Positions 13,820 to 64,000 of a stretch of DNA of 64,000 bases are shown here, one piece after another. The position numbers were made by a program, and so were the translations under genes. The DNA is taken from positions 2,436,001 through 2,500,000 of the forward strand of contig NZ_OY761823.1 in the NCBI RefSeq assembly GCF_963664965.1, given 5' to 3'. Each line of letters begins with the position of its first letter. The stretch's first letter is position 1. The notes beneath the pieces were generated by a model. It searched no databases, was not told the origin of the DNA, and was given only the letters and a program-made list of their open reading frames with translations. The stretch comes from an uncultured Pseudodesulfovibrio sp. (GTDB taxonomy: Bacteria; Desulfobacterota; Desulfovibrionia; Desulfovibrionales; Desulfovibrionaceae).

Positions 13820-13857
13820 AAAAGGTCATGGGCGGTTCGCTGTCCATGACCTTTTTT
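13820..13857 (+). terminator. Terminator after efp
   Basis: AAAGGTCATGG at 13821-13831 pairs with CCATGACCTTT from 13844, with a 12-base loop, and the arm runs into six T. It separates aroQ-efp from ftsK, which starts 18 bases later. Confidence 0.88.
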
Positions 13858-59028: not shown

Positions 59029-60126
59029 TTAATCCTCCAGATCCACGATAACGGGTTCGCCCGCCTTGGGCATCCACACTTTGTCCAGTTCAGGGCAGAC
59101 TTCGCGCACTGCTGATTCTTCGCTCGACATGAAGATCATGTCGTCTTTTTCGGCAACAAGAAGCGGCCTGAGCTTGATACGGTCATTCAGTCCCATGAGA
59201 CGGGTGTTGTCCGCCACGAGAATGGCAAACGGACCGTTGAGCATGCCCGGACCGTAGGTTGCGCGCAGTGTAGTGTACAGTTCCTTGTCCTCGGGATTCA
59301 TCTTTTCGATTTCATCCCAGAAAGGCGGTGCAAAACACTTGGCTGCCATTTCCCACGACAAGCCGTGTTTGCGGATGAGCATGTCGAGTTCATAGGCCAC
59401 GACTTCCGTATCAGTCATCATGGTGCAGAGATAATCATGCTCGCACAGGTAACGGCGGTTGATTCCGTAAGAGGATATTTCACCATTGTGAACGATGGAC
59501 CAGTTCAGGATGGTGAACGGGTGCGCTCCACCCCACCAGCCCGGAGTGTTCGTCGGGAAACGGTTGTGGCCGGTCCAGATGTACGCCTTGTATTCTTCCA
59601 GCCGGAAAAAGTCGGCAATATCTTCAGGAAATCCGACGCCTTTGAAGGCGCCCATGTTCTTGCCGCTTGAGACGACGAATGCGCCGGGGATGGTCGTGTT
59701 GATCTTCATGACCACGGCAACGATGTAATCTTCCTCGGCCAGTTCCGCGAATTCGTTGACTGGCTTTTCCGGAACGGTCACGAAATAACGATTGAACATC
59801 GGCGGATTGGGGATGGCCGGTGTTCTCCTCGTCGGGATCGGTTCGAAAAAATGCAGGTCAAAGTAGGCCCGGAGCATCTTTTCCGAGTTTTCGATGGCGC
59901 TGTCATCGTCACACATCATGTGGAAACAGTATTGGTCCGCGTGATCCGGGTAGATGCCGTAAGCGGCAAAACCACCTCCGAGGCCGTTGCCTCGATCATG
60001 CATGCAGGCCATGGCCGATATGGGCATTTCACCCGGAATCAGACCGCGCTTCTTGTGAATGACGCCGAATATGCCGCAGCCGGATATATCCTTTTGGAAA
60101 TCGTAATATCTTTCTGGTGCTTTCAT
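59029..60126 (-). CDS. Class II glutamine amidotransferase subunit of glutamate synthase (GltB1-like)
   Basis: This 365-residue protein matches the glutaminase domain of glutamate synthase. The catalytic Cys is in ISGCGIFGVI (Cys17), so a 16-residue N-terminal propeptide must be removed to give an N-terminal Cys. Other class II features are HDRGNGLGGG, WTGHNRFPTNTPGWWGGAHP, NWSIVHNGEISSYG and MMTDTEVVAYELD. It would release ammonia from glutamine for the FMN subunit. It is 11 bases downstream of the oxidoreductase gene. Confidence 0.9.
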   Translation of the reverse strand: MKAPERYYDFQKDISGCGIFGVIHKKRGLIPGEMPISAMACMHDRGNGLGGGFAAYGIYPDHADQYCFHMMCDDDSAIENSEKMLRAYFDLHFFEPIPTRRTPAIPNPPMFNRYFVTVPEKPVNEFAELAEEDYIVAVVMKINTTIPGAFVVSSGKNMGAFKGVGFPEDIADFFRLEEYKAYIWTGHNRFPTNTPGWWGGAHPFTILNWSIVHNGEISSYGINRRYLCEHDYLCTMMTDTEVVAYELDMLIRKHGLSWEMAAKCFAPPFWDEIEKMNPEDKELYTTLRATYGPGMLNGPFAILVADNTRLMGLNDRIKLRPLLVAEKDDMIFMSSEESAVREVCPELDKVWMPKAGEPVIVDLED

Positions 60127-60137
60127 TTACTACTCTC

Positions 60138-61424
60138 TTAGTCCGCTTCTTCCCAGCCGGGATTCCACGTTTCCTTGAAGAAATCATCGGGCCACATCAG
60201 TACGTCCGGCTCCCCTGCCATTATCTGTTTTTTGGCATCTTCCGGTACAGCCATCTGGAACTTGACAAACGCGGTGTACATGCCTGCCATGTCAATGTCT
60301 CCGACAAGGACATACCCGACCAGATGGTCATTCTGGAATACCAGCTTGCGGTAGCTTTTCTTCTTTTCATCCAGATGGACGGCCACTTCATAGGAAGCGT
60401 CATCTTTTGGCGGGTTAACCGTTCCGACTGAAATGGTGGGCAGGCCGTAGAAGCTGATTGAGTTCATGGCGAGACTGCCCTTGAACTCGATATTCGTACC
60501 CGTCATGTTCTTGCCCGCACAGAATCCCTGATTATAGGCGTTGGTCCAGATCGGAATCACGCGGTCATCACCGAAAAGCAGGTCTTTGGCCTGAGCCACA
60601 TCACCTGCGGCGAATACGCCCTTGGCACTGGTTCGCATATGATCGTCAACCTTGATGCCGCGATCAACTGCGATGTCGGATTCCTTGGCGAGATTGTAAT
60701 TGGGGATGACACCGATGGCGATAACCACCACGTCGGTCTGAAGAAAATCTCCATCTGTAAGGTGAACACCTTTCAGTTCACCGTCCGCATCTCGCTGAAT
60801 TTCTTTGGCAGTGACACCACATCTGACGTTCAGGCCGACCTCGGCAAGACGTCCTCCGGCCAGCGAGGCGGCATTCTCGTCAAATGCAAGGCTGAGTATG
60901 CGGGGGGAAAGTTCCAGAATGGTCACATCCACACCGCGGTCAAAGAGGGATTCACCGGCTTTCAGGCCAATCAGCCCGCCACCGATGACAACCGCCCTTT
61001 TTATGTTCCGGGCCTTGGAAATCAAGGTCTGGGCATGTTCGAGATTGGTGAAGTTGTAGACATCCTTTCCTTCGCTTCCGGGAATGGGAGGAGTAAACGG
61101 AATGCCTCCGGTTGCGATGAGCAGGTTCTCATATTCAATGCTCTCGCCTTTATCTGTCTGGACTGTTTGGGCCTTGGTGTCGATTGATTCCACACGAGTG
61201 CCGAGTTTCAGAGTGACATTGCTTTTCCCGTAAAAATCTTTGGGACGCAGAGCCAAACGCTCCGGACCGATTTTTCCTGCAAGTAGATAGGAAATGAGCG
61301 GCCGTCCGTAAGCCGGAGAGTCTTCAGCGCCGATGACAAGGATTTCATTTTCCGTATCAACCTTGCGAATGCCTTCGATAGCCCCGATGGAAGCAACGCC
61401 ATTGCCGATGATGACATATTTCAT
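60138..61424 (-). CDS. FAD/NAD(P)-dependent oxidoreductase of the glutamate synthase operon
   Basis: This 428-residue flavoprotein resembles NirB/rubredoxin reductase-type enzymes. It has FAD-binding GNGVASIGAIEGIR near residue 7, the NAD(P) Rossmann motif VVIGGGLIGLKAGESL near 145, a second FAD contact GVFAAGDVAQ, and a C-terminal domain of about 110 residues ending in EETW-like acidic sequence. It lies between the polyferredoxin and amidotransferase genes, so it probably passes electrons between NAD(P)H and ferredoxin for glutamate synthesis. The nucleotide specificity is not settled. Confidence 0.88.
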   Translation of the reverse strand: MKYVIIGNGVASIGAIEGIRKVDTENEILVIGAEDSPAYGRPLISYLLAGKIGPERLALRPKDFYGKSNVTLKLGTRVESIDTKAQTVQTDKGESIEYENLLIATGGIPFTPPIPGSEGKDVYNFTNLEHAQTLISKARNIKRAVVIGGGLIGLKAGESLFDRGVDVTILELSPRILSLAFDENAASLAGGRLAEVGLNVRCGVTAKEIQRDADGELKGVHLTDGDFLQTDVVVIAIGVIPNYNLAKESDIAVDRGIKVDDHMRTSAKGVFAAGDVAQAKDLLFGDDRVIPIWTNAYNQGFCAGKNMTGTNIEFKGSLAMNSISFYGLPTISVGTVNPPKDDASYEVAVHLDEKKKSYRKLVFQNDHLVGYVLVGDIDMAGMYTAFVKFQMAVPEDAKKQIMAGEPDVLMWPDDFFKETWNPGWEEAD

Positions 61425-61434
61425 AGTAGCTCTC

Positions 61435-61881
61435 CTACCGTTCCTCGAATTTCAAAGCCGCGTTCGGGCATGCAGCAACACAGGCGGGGCCTTCTTCCCT
61501 ACCCTCACACAGATCGCATTTGACGATCTTGCCTTCGGTGGGATGCCGTCTGATAGCGCCATAGGGACAGGCCATCAGGCAGGACCAGCACCCGACGCAC
61601 TTATTGCGGTCGTAGACGGTCCGGCCGGTTTCCGGGTCTTTGTGCAGACCGCCGGAAATACATGCGGCCACACAGGACGGCTCATCGCAATGCCGACAAC
61701 TGATGGCTACACAGGTGTCGCCCTTTTCAAAGACTCTCTTGCACGGTGACAAGCCGTCCTTGCCGCGCTCTTCGCGGTAGGCGATAATCAGGTCTTTGCT
61801 TTTTGAATGAGCGGTAATGCAGGCCAACTCGCAGAGATGGCAGCCAATACAGTAATTTTTATCCGGATACACTCTTTTCAT
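61435..61881 (-). CDS. Four-cluster 4Fe-4S ferredoxin-type protein
   Basis: This 148-residue electron-transfer protein belongs to the HycB/DmsB-type polyferredoxin group. Four Cys groups are seen: CIGCHLCELAC, CRHCDEPSCVAAC, CVGCWSCLMACPYGA, and CDLCEGREEGPACVAACP, enough for four [4Fe-4S] clusters. No twin-arginine signal is present, so it is cytoplasmic. It lies between the FMN synthase subunit and the FAD oxidoreductase and likely wires them together. Confidence 0.92.
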   Translation of the reverse strand: MKRVYPDKNYCIGCHLCELACITAHSKSKDLIIAYREERGKDGLSPCKRVFEKGDTCVAISCRHCDEPSCVAACISGGLHKDPETGRTVYDRNKCVGCWSCLMACPYGAIRRHPTEGKIVKCDLCEGREEGPACVAACPNAALKFEER

Positions 61882-61893
61882 GATGTTCTCCGT

Positions 61894-63420
61894 CTATCGT
61901 CCGGCGTGTTTGATGCCGAGAATGTCGAGTTCAGTGTCTGAAAGACCTACGCCACGCAGTTTGTCGCGATTGCCGCGCAGGCTTTCAATGGAGTTGAGTC
62001 CCATGCCGCCGAGCATTTCCTCGATTTCATGGCCCCATGCACGAATCAGGTTCGTGAGTTTCTTGGCCGCAATATCGGGGTTTTGGCGTTTGGACAGCTT
62101 GGGATCGTTGGTAGCGATACCCCAAGGGCATTTACCTGTGTAGCATCGACCGCAAATGGTACAGCCCACAGCAATCAAGGTGGCGGTGCCGATGTATACG
62201 GCGTCCGCGCCCAGAGCGATTGCCTTGATGACGTCACCGGCGCAGCGGATGCCGCCAGCGGCTACAACGGATACGTTGTTGCGGATACCTTCGTCACGCA
62301 GTCGCTGGTCAACCTGGGCCAGAGCGAGTTCGATGGGAATCCCCACGTTGTCGCGGATCATGGCAGGTGCCGCTCCTGTACCGCCACGCATGCCGTCCAC
62401 AGTGATGATATCTGCGCCAGCCCGTGCAATGCCGGATGCAATGGCTGCGACATTGTGTACAGCAGCAATCTTGACGGAAATCGGCACCTTGTATTCAGAC
62501 GCCTCTTTCAGGGCGTAAATGAGCTGAAGCAGGTCCTCAATGGAGTAGATGTCATGATGCGGTGCCGGAGAAATCGCATCGGAACCAATAGGAACCATGC
62601 GGGTTTCAGACACCTTGTCATTGATTTTTTCACCGGGAAGATGACCGCCGATACCGGGTTTTGCGCCTTGCCCGACCTTGATTTCAATGCCGGCTCCGGC
62701 TTTCAGATAATCGAGATGCACGCCGAATCGACCGGATGCAACCTGAACGATCGTGTTCTTTCCATACTTGTATAATGACTTGTGCAGTCCGCCTTCACCG
62801 GTGTTGTACGCTGTTCCGGTTGCAGTTGCGGCGCGGGCCATGGCGCGGTGCAGATTGAAGTTGATCGCACCGAAGCTCATGGCTGCAAACATGATGGGAA
62901 TATCAAGTTCAAGCTGGGGAGTCAGCTTTGTCTTGAGTTCCGGCTTGCCGTTTTTGCCGGTTACGATGTTGATCTTCTTGGGCTTGGCTCCAAGGAAGGT
63001 CTTGAGTTCCATTGGCTCGCGAAGCGGATCGATGGAGGGGTTGGTAACCTGGCTTGCATCAAGAAGCATGCGGTCCCAGTAAACAGGAATGTCAACAGGC
63101 GATCCCATACCGGCGAGGAGCACCCCGCCAGTGTCGGCCTGTTTATATATGTTTTGAAGGAAAACAGGACGCCATAGGCTGTTTGTCCTGAACTCCGAAG
63201 GTTTCTTGCGAATGTTGAGGGCCGCTGTGGGACAAAGGGCTTCGCAGCGATGGCAGCCGATGCATTTGGTGTTGTCATGCATGACTTTCTGCCTATTTTC
63301 GTCCCAGTAATGGGCTTCGTAGGAACACTGTCGGACGCAAACCTTGCAGTTGATGCAAAGGTCTTTGTCTCGGTCAATGCAAAACTCATGGTAGTTTTTA
63401 TTGACGGGTTGGAACAGCAA
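61894..63420 (-). CDS. Glutamate synthase FMN subunit with N-terminal ferredoxin domain (GltB2-like)
   Basis: This 508-residue protein has an N-terminal two-cluster ferredoxin domain (CINCKVCVRQC and CIGCHRCEALCP, about residues 20-65) fused to the FMN-binding glutamate synthase TIM barrel (about 150-460). Key barrel features are FGAINFNLHRAMARAA, YNTGEGGLH, GQGAKPGIGGHLPG, VDGMRGGTGAAP and the 3Fe-4S-type CTICGRCYTGKCPWGI. It would reductively aminate 2-oxoglutarate using ammonia from the amidotransferase. The start is TTG, with AGAGG about 7 bases upstream. It is the first gene of the operon. Confidence 0.93.
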   Translation of the reverse strand: MLFQPVNKNYHEFCIDRDKDLCINCKVCVRQCSYEAHYWDENRQKVMHDNTKCIGCHRCEALCPTAALNIRKKPSEFRTNSLWRPVFLQNIYKQADTGGVLLAGMGSPVDIPVYWDRMLLDASQVTNPSIDPLREPMELKTFLGAKPKKINIVTGKNGKPELKTKLTPQLELDIPIMFAAMSFGAINFNLHRAMARAATATGTAYNTGEGGLHKSLYKYGKNTIVQVASGRFGVHLDYLKAGAGIEIKVGQGAKPGIGGHLPGEKINDKVSETRMVPIGSDAISPAPHHDIYSIEDLLQLIYALKEASEYKVPISVKIAAVHNVAAIASGIARAGADIITVDGMRGGTGAAPAMIRDNVGIPIELALAQVDQRLRDEGIRNNVSVVAAGGIRCAGDVIKAIALGADAVYIGTATLIAVGCTICGRCYTGKCPWGIATNDPKLSKRQNPDIAAKKLTNLIRAWGHEIEEMLGGMGLNSIESLRGNRDKLRGVGLSDTELDILGIKHAGR

Positions 63421-63802
63421 GACGGTTACCTCTTTCAGTTTGTTGCCAAAAAAGTCATCTTTTCGTCAAAATGAATCAATTGGCTTTTCCGTTTTTTTAC
63501 AATTCAGGCAAAAGCCTGAGCGTTATTGGAAGAAACAAAAAAGCATATCCACCTACAGCGTGTCAAGAAAAGTTTTAAACCACTGTATTTAAATGGAAAA
63601 AACATTCTTGTATACATGTTCATTTTTGTCTAACCGCAACGAGACAATAATATAACACGTCGAGTTGCCTGCCAATTATTAACGGCAGAACATGAAATCG
63701 CGGGTATGACGTTTCCAGAAAACGGCAGCATGGCGCGCTTTGCGAAGAGCATGACAGCAATGTAAGCTTGACATGCTTCCATAATCTGCATAAAGGATTC
63801 TC
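63421..63802. other. Divergent intergenic region between gltB2 and the Phe leader
   Basis: About 380 bases hold the promoters of both the reverse glutamate synthase operon and the forward leader. A reverse-strand TTGACA (near 63555) has no well-placed -10. A forward TTGCGA (63740-63745), 17 bases before TAAGCT (63763-63768), is a weak promoter for the leader. A small hairpin, TCAGGC/GCCTGA, lies near 63507. No gene was seen. Confidence 0.45.
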
Positions 63803-63892
63803 ATGAACACAAACCAGAACCGCTTTAGCTTCTTTTTCTTTTTTAGCTTTCGCTTTTTTAGAAGCGCCTGCGGTCTTGGGGTGTGTGTATAA
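63803..63892 (+). CDS. pheL: Phenylalanine-rich leader peptide (attenuator control peptide)
   Basis: A 29-codon frame starts at ATG 63803, with AAAGGA 5 bases upstream, and ends TAA at 63892. It encodes nine Phe codons among residues 8-19, including five in a row (SFFFFFS) and FRFF. The rest is short and polar at the start and Gly/Cys/Val-rich at the end. This is the pattern of the PheL leader peptide, in which ribosome stalling at Phe codons reads the level of charged tRNA-Phe. The gene symbol is by analogy with E. coli pheL. The controlled gene lies past the window end. Confidence 0.88.
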   Translation: MNTNQNRFSFFFFFSFRFFRSACGLGVCV

Positions 63893-63958
63893 CTGAAAGA
63901 GGTTGAATCACATCAATAACAAGGGCCGCAGGCGTATAGCCGGCGGCCCTTTTGTTTT
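63865..63958 (+). promoter_or_regulatory. Phenylalanine transcription attenuator (antiterminator and terminator)
   Basis: CGCCTGCGG (63865-63873), just after the Phe codons, is the exact complement of CCGCAGGCG (63926-63934), giving the antiterminator. The same 3' bases overlap the terminator stem GGGCCGC/GCGGCCC (63923-63929 with 63943-63949), which is followed by TTTTGTTTT. A ribosome stalled on Phe codons would free the first arm and prevent termination. The last bases of the window hold AAGGAGAG, a ribosome site for the controlled gene. Confidence 0.88.
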
Positions 63959-64000
63959 ATCCGCCGATCATACGCCCAGTCCGCAGATCAAGGAGAGAGG

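Follow-up and report, generated by a model that had tools for sequence, protein, structure and literature searches.

At the 3′ edge of a 64-kb window (the whole 64,000-nt stretch analysed here) from an uncultured Pseudodesulfovibrio, we uncovered a short Phe-rich ORF with two mutually exclusive, covarying hairpins. We are confident that these elements constitute a ribosome-mediated attenuator, which would sense charged tRNA-Phe and control the genes for an accessory protein and a predicted Na+/phenylalanine importer, and that they represent one member of a re-coded family of such attenuators in Desulfovibrionaceae. When Phe is scarce, the ribosome is predicted to stall in the Phe run and mask region 1, leaving region 2 to pair with region 3 ahead of the synthesis of region 4; the terminator would thereby be blocked and the symporter transcribed. 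When Phe is plentiful or the leader is untranslated, region 2 would be held by region 1, the 3:4 terminator would form and transcription would stop. Across the family, the sensing codons match the controlled gene and are those of Phe alone, of Tyr alone, or of both together, in some cases joined by Trp.

Architecture of the leader

The leader ORF (63803-63892), which translates as MNTNQNRFSFFFFFSFRFFRSACGLGVCV, carries the nine Phe codons in a 29-residue frame that had been recognized in a first-pass annotation of the sequence (Table 1). Nine Phe in 12 codons is the maximum among the 1258 short ORFs (12–45 aa; 678 on the plus and 580 on the minus strand) of the 64-kb window, three of which, the leader ORF included, reach at least six. 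Another Phe-rich short ORF, at 13846, was rejected as a leader: it overlaps, in another frame, the start of a 743-aa gene that by eye is FtsK-like. In relatives, Phe is retained in the leader while TTT and TTC are swapped.

Downstream of the Phe run, CGCCTGCGG (63865-63873) is the perfect 9-bp complement of CCGCAGGCG (63926-63934). This pairing had been noticed in the first pass, and the predicted antiterminator helix is larger than was then given, joining 63864-63877 with 63922-63935 in 14 bp, three of them G-U, with an additional inner helix. The 9-bp antiterminator and the terminator are mutually exclusive, one strand being shared between them. The overlapping GC-rich terminator and its T tail lie where they had been placed; the stem arms (63921-63933/63939-63951) contain an A.G mismatch at 63930/63942, which is perhaps why a consensus terminator scan of 63600-64000 returned no sites. 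Thermodynamic folding, which had been suggested as a check, turned the segment 63790-63960 into the 1:2 hairpin and the terminator, a structure more stable than those of all 200 dinucleotide shuffles (z = -4.65).

Table 1. Features of the attenuator and of the genes downstream of it
Feature	Coordinates	Strand	Remarks
-35 element TTGACA, predicted leader promoter	63768..63773	+	
Alternative -10 CATAAA	63789-63794	+	script pick; 4/6 matches, spacer 15
-10-like TAAAGG	63791..63796	+	predicted; 3/6 matches, spacer 17, 6 nt before leader ATG
Possible Shine-Dalgarno AAGGA	63793-63797	+	overlaps -10-like TAAAGG
Leader peptide ORF	63803..63892	+	ATG 63803 to TAA 63892; 29 codons, 9 Phe; conserved in relatives
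Region 1, protector strand for region 2	63806..63832	+	duplex -26.2 kcal/mol, z -3.95 vs shuffles
Predicted ribosome stall region	63824..63859	+	Phe codons 8, 10-14, 16, 18, 19
Region 2	63862..63887	+	core 63865-63873 pairs with region 3
Region 3	63921..63934	+	common to antiterminator and terminator; core 63926-63934
Terminator stem-loop (3:4)	63921..63951	+	GC-rich; one internal A.G mismatch
Terminator T tract	63950..63958	+	
Ribosome-binding site AGGAGAGAGG of first regulated gene	63991..64000	+	
Accessory gene, 46 aa	L003:2003-2143		NF045580
Symporter gene, 535 aa	L003:2144-3751		PF00474

When the ribosome is placed in the model on codon 9, 14 or 16 of this leader, region 2 is accessible and the 14-bp antiterminator forms; placed on codon 19, it covers part of region 2. 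The ribosome-free full transcript folds into the 1:2 hairpin and the terminator; the ribosome-free transcript in which region 4 is not yet made still prefers 2:3 pairing, and with a ribosome on codon 14 even the full transcript folds as the antiterminator.

The regulated genes

The regulated gene was expected beyond the window, and it indeed begins there, with an ATG at 64003, just outside the edge. Its predicted identity as part of a shikimate/prephenate dehydratase operon or pheST did not hold: in place of pheA or pheST there are genes for a small accessory protein and a symporter, the latter a predicted Na+/phenylalanine importer. The 46-aa ORF scores 52.4 against NF045580 (symporter small accessory protein; cut-off 35), and the 535-aa protein 172 bits against PF00474 (sodium:solute symporter; curated cut-off 22.8). 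The latter falls under the cut-offs of the NCBIfam superfamily model TIGR00813 (168 against 184), the PutP equivalog TIGR02121 (194.1 bits against 515.5) and the PanF equivalog TIGR02119 (173.8 against 328.05); hence, homology gives no substrate. Among the best 80 of 191 GTDB loci, its closest named relatives are from Pseudodesulfovibrio (89%). The symporter gene is followed on the same strand by genes for a dUTP diphosphatase and then an acetylornithine-type transaminase; as neither belongs to the aromatic pathway, we take the regulated unit to be the accessory protein and the symporter. On the other side, the attenuator is adjoined by a divergent gene cluster on the minus strand (59029-63420 of the window), where a 508-aa ORF (61894-63420) shows a partial match to the glutamate synthase large subunit (278 bits; cut-off 1047) and ferredoxin-type stretches.

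Phyletic spread of the symporter leader

Matches to the symporter at E <= 1e-150 are found in 27 of the 119 genomes of the family. An aromatic-rich leader followed by a terminator is present at 20 of the 30 symporter loci that were read, and none was found at the other 10. By the cut-offs of our script, 16 of these leaders are of the Phe type, three of the Tyr type and one is “mixed” (L012, F7 Y1 W2). Among the named GTDB loci (best 80 of 191), leaders were recovered at 12 of the 78 scanned, L041 and L073 having been left out for absence of upstream sequence; four of the 12 repeat genomes of the 30-locus set. They come from Pseudodesulfovibrio, Desulfovibrio, other Desulfovibrionaceae, Halodesulfovibrio, Salidesulfovibrio and Desulfonauticus. 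Three further loci (L103, L106 and L114), with a short ORF and a terminator and four to five aromatics in 12 codons, are weaker and were not counted as leaders. No leader was detected in the scanned relatives of the Desulfarculus, Desulfomonile, Spirochaetes and Omnitrophota types, some of which had short upstream sequence. A search at the gathering threshold for T-boxes, which might have confirmed the substrate independently, returned none in 19 loci of symporter relatives, three of them from Bacillota, the only matches being to the fluoride and nhaA-I riboswitches. One nhaA-I match lies 3′ of a distant symporter relative (L094:5014-5075, minus strand).

In Halodesulfovibrio, tandem copies of the symporter are preceded by different leaders, MNKLNTNFFFAFFGFRG... 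with Phe and MNTINHHMNSYFYAYYGYRV... with Tyr. The four Tyr-leader symporters, next to which two Phe-leader copies branch, form a single clade (support 99/97) and have in common 15 residues, F298Y included, that are absent from all 24 Phe-leader copies. Profile alignment to SGLT1 places position 298 in the helix bearing the sugar-site lysine.

Covariation and the behavior of the switch

We aligned 52 leaders, 26 from symporter and 26 from aro loci, using MAFFT. Left out of this set were L134 and L138, in which the script found no T run, and L143, whose peptide is identical to that of L140, as well as, from the symporter half, L024, L034 and the repeat genomes L038, L043, L046 and L054. The comparison with relatives, which the first-pass annotation had called for, revealed both conserved Phe codons and covariation in both stems. 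In the antiterminator, 95.0% of 439 cells are paired, as against at most 41.8% in slid controls, and 18 cells show double changes across the 52 sequences. In the terminator, 91.9% of 676 cells are paired (slid controls at most 60.2%), with 34 double-change cells and eight pairs with double changes. For both helices the percentage paired, the double-change cells and the covariation score exceed those of 500 out of 500 shuffles. Other counts are less distinctive: the number of antiterminator pairs changed on both sides (three) was equally high in 37 of 500 shuffles, that of antiterminator pair types (nine) in 111 of 500, and that of terminator pair types in 72 of 500.

An individual case is the column pair 20-104 (UA 33, CG 9, AU 4, UG 3, other 2; n=51), which displays 13 double changes and is broken in two leaders, L009 and L010. 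Column 104 is A, G or T against U, C (or U) and A, respectively, in region 2, and is mismatched or unpaired in the terminator of 38 of the 52 leaders. Thus, it covaries with region 2 despite being unpaired in the terminator, which suggests that the 2:3 helix is selected for itself.

In the folding analyses of the 52 leaders, region-2 sites were chosen by best complement, a choice that is biased toward pairing and that also fixed the start of the aligned segments. With region 4 unmade, 2:3 pairing has P > 0.5 in 49/52 leaders for a ribosome stalled at the aromatic codons, and still in 41/52 for one at the stop codon. Since 2:3 is favored before region 4 even in the unstalled configuration, the fed state needs 1:2 pairing to be made first or restored: the 1:2 helix would form first, or re-form behind the ribosome. 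Across the leaders, 1:2 pairing is moderately supported, beating shuffles (z < -1.64) in 31/52 and having P > 0.5 in 30/52. Equilibrium folding was set aside as a proof of the switch, as it flips in only 3/52, and the state preceding region 4 was used instead: in the full transcript at equilibrium, with the ribosome at the aromatic codon that opens the run, the terminator is kept in 49/52. That the terminator prevails in the full transcript even in the stalled state argues for a kinetic switch.

Promoter and start of the leader RNA

In 73 of the 78 leaders (symporter 26/28, aro 29/29, solitary 18/21), a TTGACA element (at least 5/6 matches) is located 35–39 nt upstream of the ATG, compared with 52 of the 1346 plus-strand ATGs and two of the 50 long ORFs of the window. 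A -10-like hexamer with at least three matches accompanies it in 66 of the 77 leaders with a -35 element, and ends 5–10 nt before the ATG in 63; these matches are weak, mostly 3–4 of 6. A consensus sigma-70 scan returned no promoter for this strand, and thus not that of the leader, the -10 element of which is weak. The positions of the two elements would place the RNA start at or near the leader ATG. Further, a Shine-Dalgarno-like tetramer precedes only 8/78 leaders versus all 20 start codons identified for ADTH synthase genes in 29 loci; the corresponding figure for long ATG ORFs of the window, with the longest start taken, is 18/50. We therefore propose, from this spacing, that in many members the leader ORF is probably leaderless. 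This does not hold throughout: in the 16 aro leaders that come from other genera, the TTGACA lies mostly farther away, at 52–66 nt in 14 and at 35 and 32 nt in one leader each, and half (8/16) have a Shine-Dalgarno-like tetramer. In the window leader, where AAGGA overlaps the -10 element, either route of initiation could be usable.

Sister attenuators and the match between codons and genes

In the same genome, a 38-base terminator stretch, 90% identical to that of the symporter leader, occurs upstream of an aro operon. This operon starts with genes for an ADTH synthase, DHQS II and a chorismate mutase-prephenate dehydratase, and goes on with genes whose best matches are prephenate dehydrogenase (119.5 bits against a cut-off of 273), anthranilate synthase I (442 against 518) and trpA (202 against 102). 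Its leader, MNITTTLPAYFSNFYFGYWFTRACGSGECAL, contains Phe, Tyr and Trp codons. A third member, with the leader MMHNISARFFFFFSFFRNACGIGVH and its Phe codons, is found upstream of a solitary ADTH synthase gene. For another ADTH synthase copy, the third (369650-370429), inspection of 350 nt revealed no leader rich in aromatics. These sister leaders stand before genes for the supply of the very amino acids that they encode (aro and ADTH synthase). Thus, the earlier surmise that aromatic amino acid synthesis is under translation-coupled control in this group is supported by the attenuators of the aro-pheA-tyrA-trp operon and the solitary ADTH synthase.

A covariance model built from the 52 leaders (26 symporter, 26 aro) matches 103 of the 119 family genomes at E <= 0.001; in a 297-genome sample of the phylum, 24 genomes match at E <= 1e-5, 11 of them Desulfovibrionaceae. 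In the genome of the window, there are 12 matches at E <= 1, two of which are, by position, antisense to real members, and none of the matches L150-L154 has an aromatic-rich leader ORF. In another family of the phylum (genome G160), a match (L201:1440-1600, E 3e-16) is associated with a TTGACA 38 nt 5′ of a short ORF that is not aromatic-rich; the downstream gene codes for a 369-aa transporter, which scores 57.8 bits (cut-off 300) against the model of the aromatic amino acid exporter YddG.

In our first set of ADTH synthase loci, 29 of 30 have DHQS next to the synthase and a leader holding all three aromatics, and at the one locus without DHQS a leader was not found. Forty further model matches comprise 16 DHQS-linked loci with mixed leaders (nine with Trp, seven with Phe and Tyr only) and 20 synthases that, as far as the sequence was read, have no adjoining DHQS and carry Phe (13) or Tyr (7) leaders; one (L158) sits before an unrelated gene. 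At the remaining three loci, L157, L159 and L160, a model match and a short ORF with two Trp codons and other aromatics precede separate trpE-like genes; these are possible, weakly supported Trp members of the family, labeled Trp by cut-off. With fixed cut-offs, the totals for the loci read are mixed leaders in 45/45 DHQS-linked operons and Phe (14) or Tyr (7) leaders at 21/21 solitary ADTH synthases. For these counts the short ORFs were picked for their aromatic content, and the model includes a portion of the leader, which makes such ORFs easier to find without dictating the kind of aromatic residue in them. In the ADTH synthase tree, the Tyr type is confined to one clade and the Phe type occurs in at least two.

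The Trp codons can be examined separately in 40 aro operons followed over 7–14 kb (the 16 DHQS-linked loci among the forty further matches, 20 from the 29 of the first set, and four of a further genus). They are present in all 21 operons with trpE versus 11 of the 19 without it (Fisher p 0.001), or 10 of the 19 when the last 11 residues are excluded (Fisher p 0.0003), both values being uncorrected for ancestry. The 11 leaders with a Trp codon and no trpE in the stretch read are L211, L213-L216, L219, L221, L223 and L226-L228; their Trp codons could reflect either a lag in evolution or a genuine influence of Trp on the common pathway.

Alternative explanations

The attenuator might be real and respond to Phe only as a starvation signal, the symporter carrying some other cargo, such as a peptide, a monocarboxylate or a compound from the breakdown of Phe. 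We regard this as unlikely, though still to be taken seriously, given how far the symporter lies from the characterized families (194 against 515.5 for TIGR02121, 174 against 328 for TIGR02119) and the lack of a leader in 66 of the 78 named relatives, three of which (L039, L105 and L107) had less than 200 nt upstream. However, such a cargo fits poorly with the retention of the Phe leader across several genera, and would make it hard to explain why a tandem paralogue with 15 fixed residues, F298Y among them, carries a Tyr leader.

The other two alternatives concern the leader itself. A nascent-peptide arrest of the TnaC kind, in which the peptide would sense a free amino acid inside the ribosome, could account for the conservation of the C-terminal part of the peptide within the genus. 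Yet this very part coincides with RNA region 2, where, almost throughout the alignment, the codon varies between TGC, AGC and CGC in step with A, T and G in region 3 (the exceptions being G-U pairs, and mismatches in L009 and L010); moreover, the aromatic residues, be they Phe, Tyr or a mixture, differ according to the gene, as codon sensing predicts, so that we give peptide arrest little credence. That the ORF is merely a chance T-rich stretch ahead of an ordinary terminator is suggested by the T-richness of Phe codons and the adjoining terminator. We consider the odds of this to be negligible against the extremity of the Phe run among the 1258 short ORFs, the preservation of Phe through TTT/TTC changes, the covariation of both helices and the model matches in 103/119 family genomes. 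We accordingly retain the tRNA-Phe-sensing attenuator as our preferred reading.

Relationship to known systems

The attenuators of the enterobacterial pheL/pheA and pheST combine a Phe-rich leader ORF with a mutually exclusive antiterminator and terminator, and the first-pass annotation had accordingly called the present element pheL-type. This label stands with regard to the Phe-codon leader and the mutually exclusive, covarying hairpins, and fails with regard to membership in Rfam Phe_leader, which we take to be RF01859: the window leader had no match to it up to E = 1, the only hits being the sub-threshold SNORA76, BjrC68 and P15, and none to the Rfam T-box. While the leader-ORF and exclusive-hairpin logic is the same as in enterobacteria, here a symporter is controlled, the core of region 2 is part of the ORF and precedes the stop codon, and many leaders have no Shine-Dalgarno sequence. 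Deducing a transporter's substrate from its RNA leader likewise has a precedent in work by Vitreschak from 2004, which reportedly predicted histidine and other transporters from attenuators or T-boxes; our case differs in concerning another lineage, the sodium symporter family and a Phe/Tyr pair of paralogues.

Our search of mainly open-access literature, which is weak as evidence of absence, gave no description of these leaders among the papers listed; nor do the accessible portions of PMC2965389, PMC3766115, PMC5343134 and PMC1262725 describe them. The nearest published statement that emerged is an entry in Table 7 of PMC1173090, which lists, with Merino's website as its source, a putative attenuator preceding the aroA'-aroB'-pheA-aroF-tyrA-trp supraoperon of Desulfovibrio vulgaris. 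This is probably a member of the aro-operon attenuators described above; the entry, in the part of the paper available, gives no leader peptide, codons or Phe/Tyr/Trp specificity, and no symporter or solitary synthase. As far as the available text of PMC9031893 goes, the leaderless polycysteine short ORFs of mycobacteria (Canestrari 2020, cited therein) act on the translation of the next genes. They resemble the present leaders, for which leaderlessness is predicted, in sensing an amino acid through a run of one codon, and differ from them in that a terminator is present here.

Implications

The mechanism proposed here is known in kind; what is new is its target, the switching of codons, the Tyr-coded members and the probable leaderless start. 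On balance, we favor the scenario, taken as a whole, in which one ancestral attenuator was copied onto several genes of Desulfovibrionaceae and re-coded for Phe, Tyr or mixtures, perhaps with Trp, such that the leader reads out the function of the gene, with the Pseudodesulfovibrio side being leaderless. On that side the leader ORF would begin at the RNA 5′ end or a few nt from it, and the deeper genera would retain an untranslated leader, often with a Shine-Dalgarno sequence. Were this joint scenario true, the symporter pair could be named as Phe and Tyr importers, the ADTH synthases would be split into Phe- and Tyr-governed isozymes, an attenuation-governed counterpart of the AroG/AroF of E. 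coli, and the family would include tyrosine-specific ribosome attenuators. It also raises the questions of whether a leaderless leader ORF can operate in a transcription attenuator, and of how region 2 can be shielded when the ribosome translates through its core before reaching the stop codon. The family would offer a natural set of attenuators in which the RNA switch stays constant and the sensing codons vary (Phe, Tyr or mixtures), and its leaders would furnish testable predictions of substrate for the orphan sodium symporters and the duplicated ADTH synthases of sulfate reducers.
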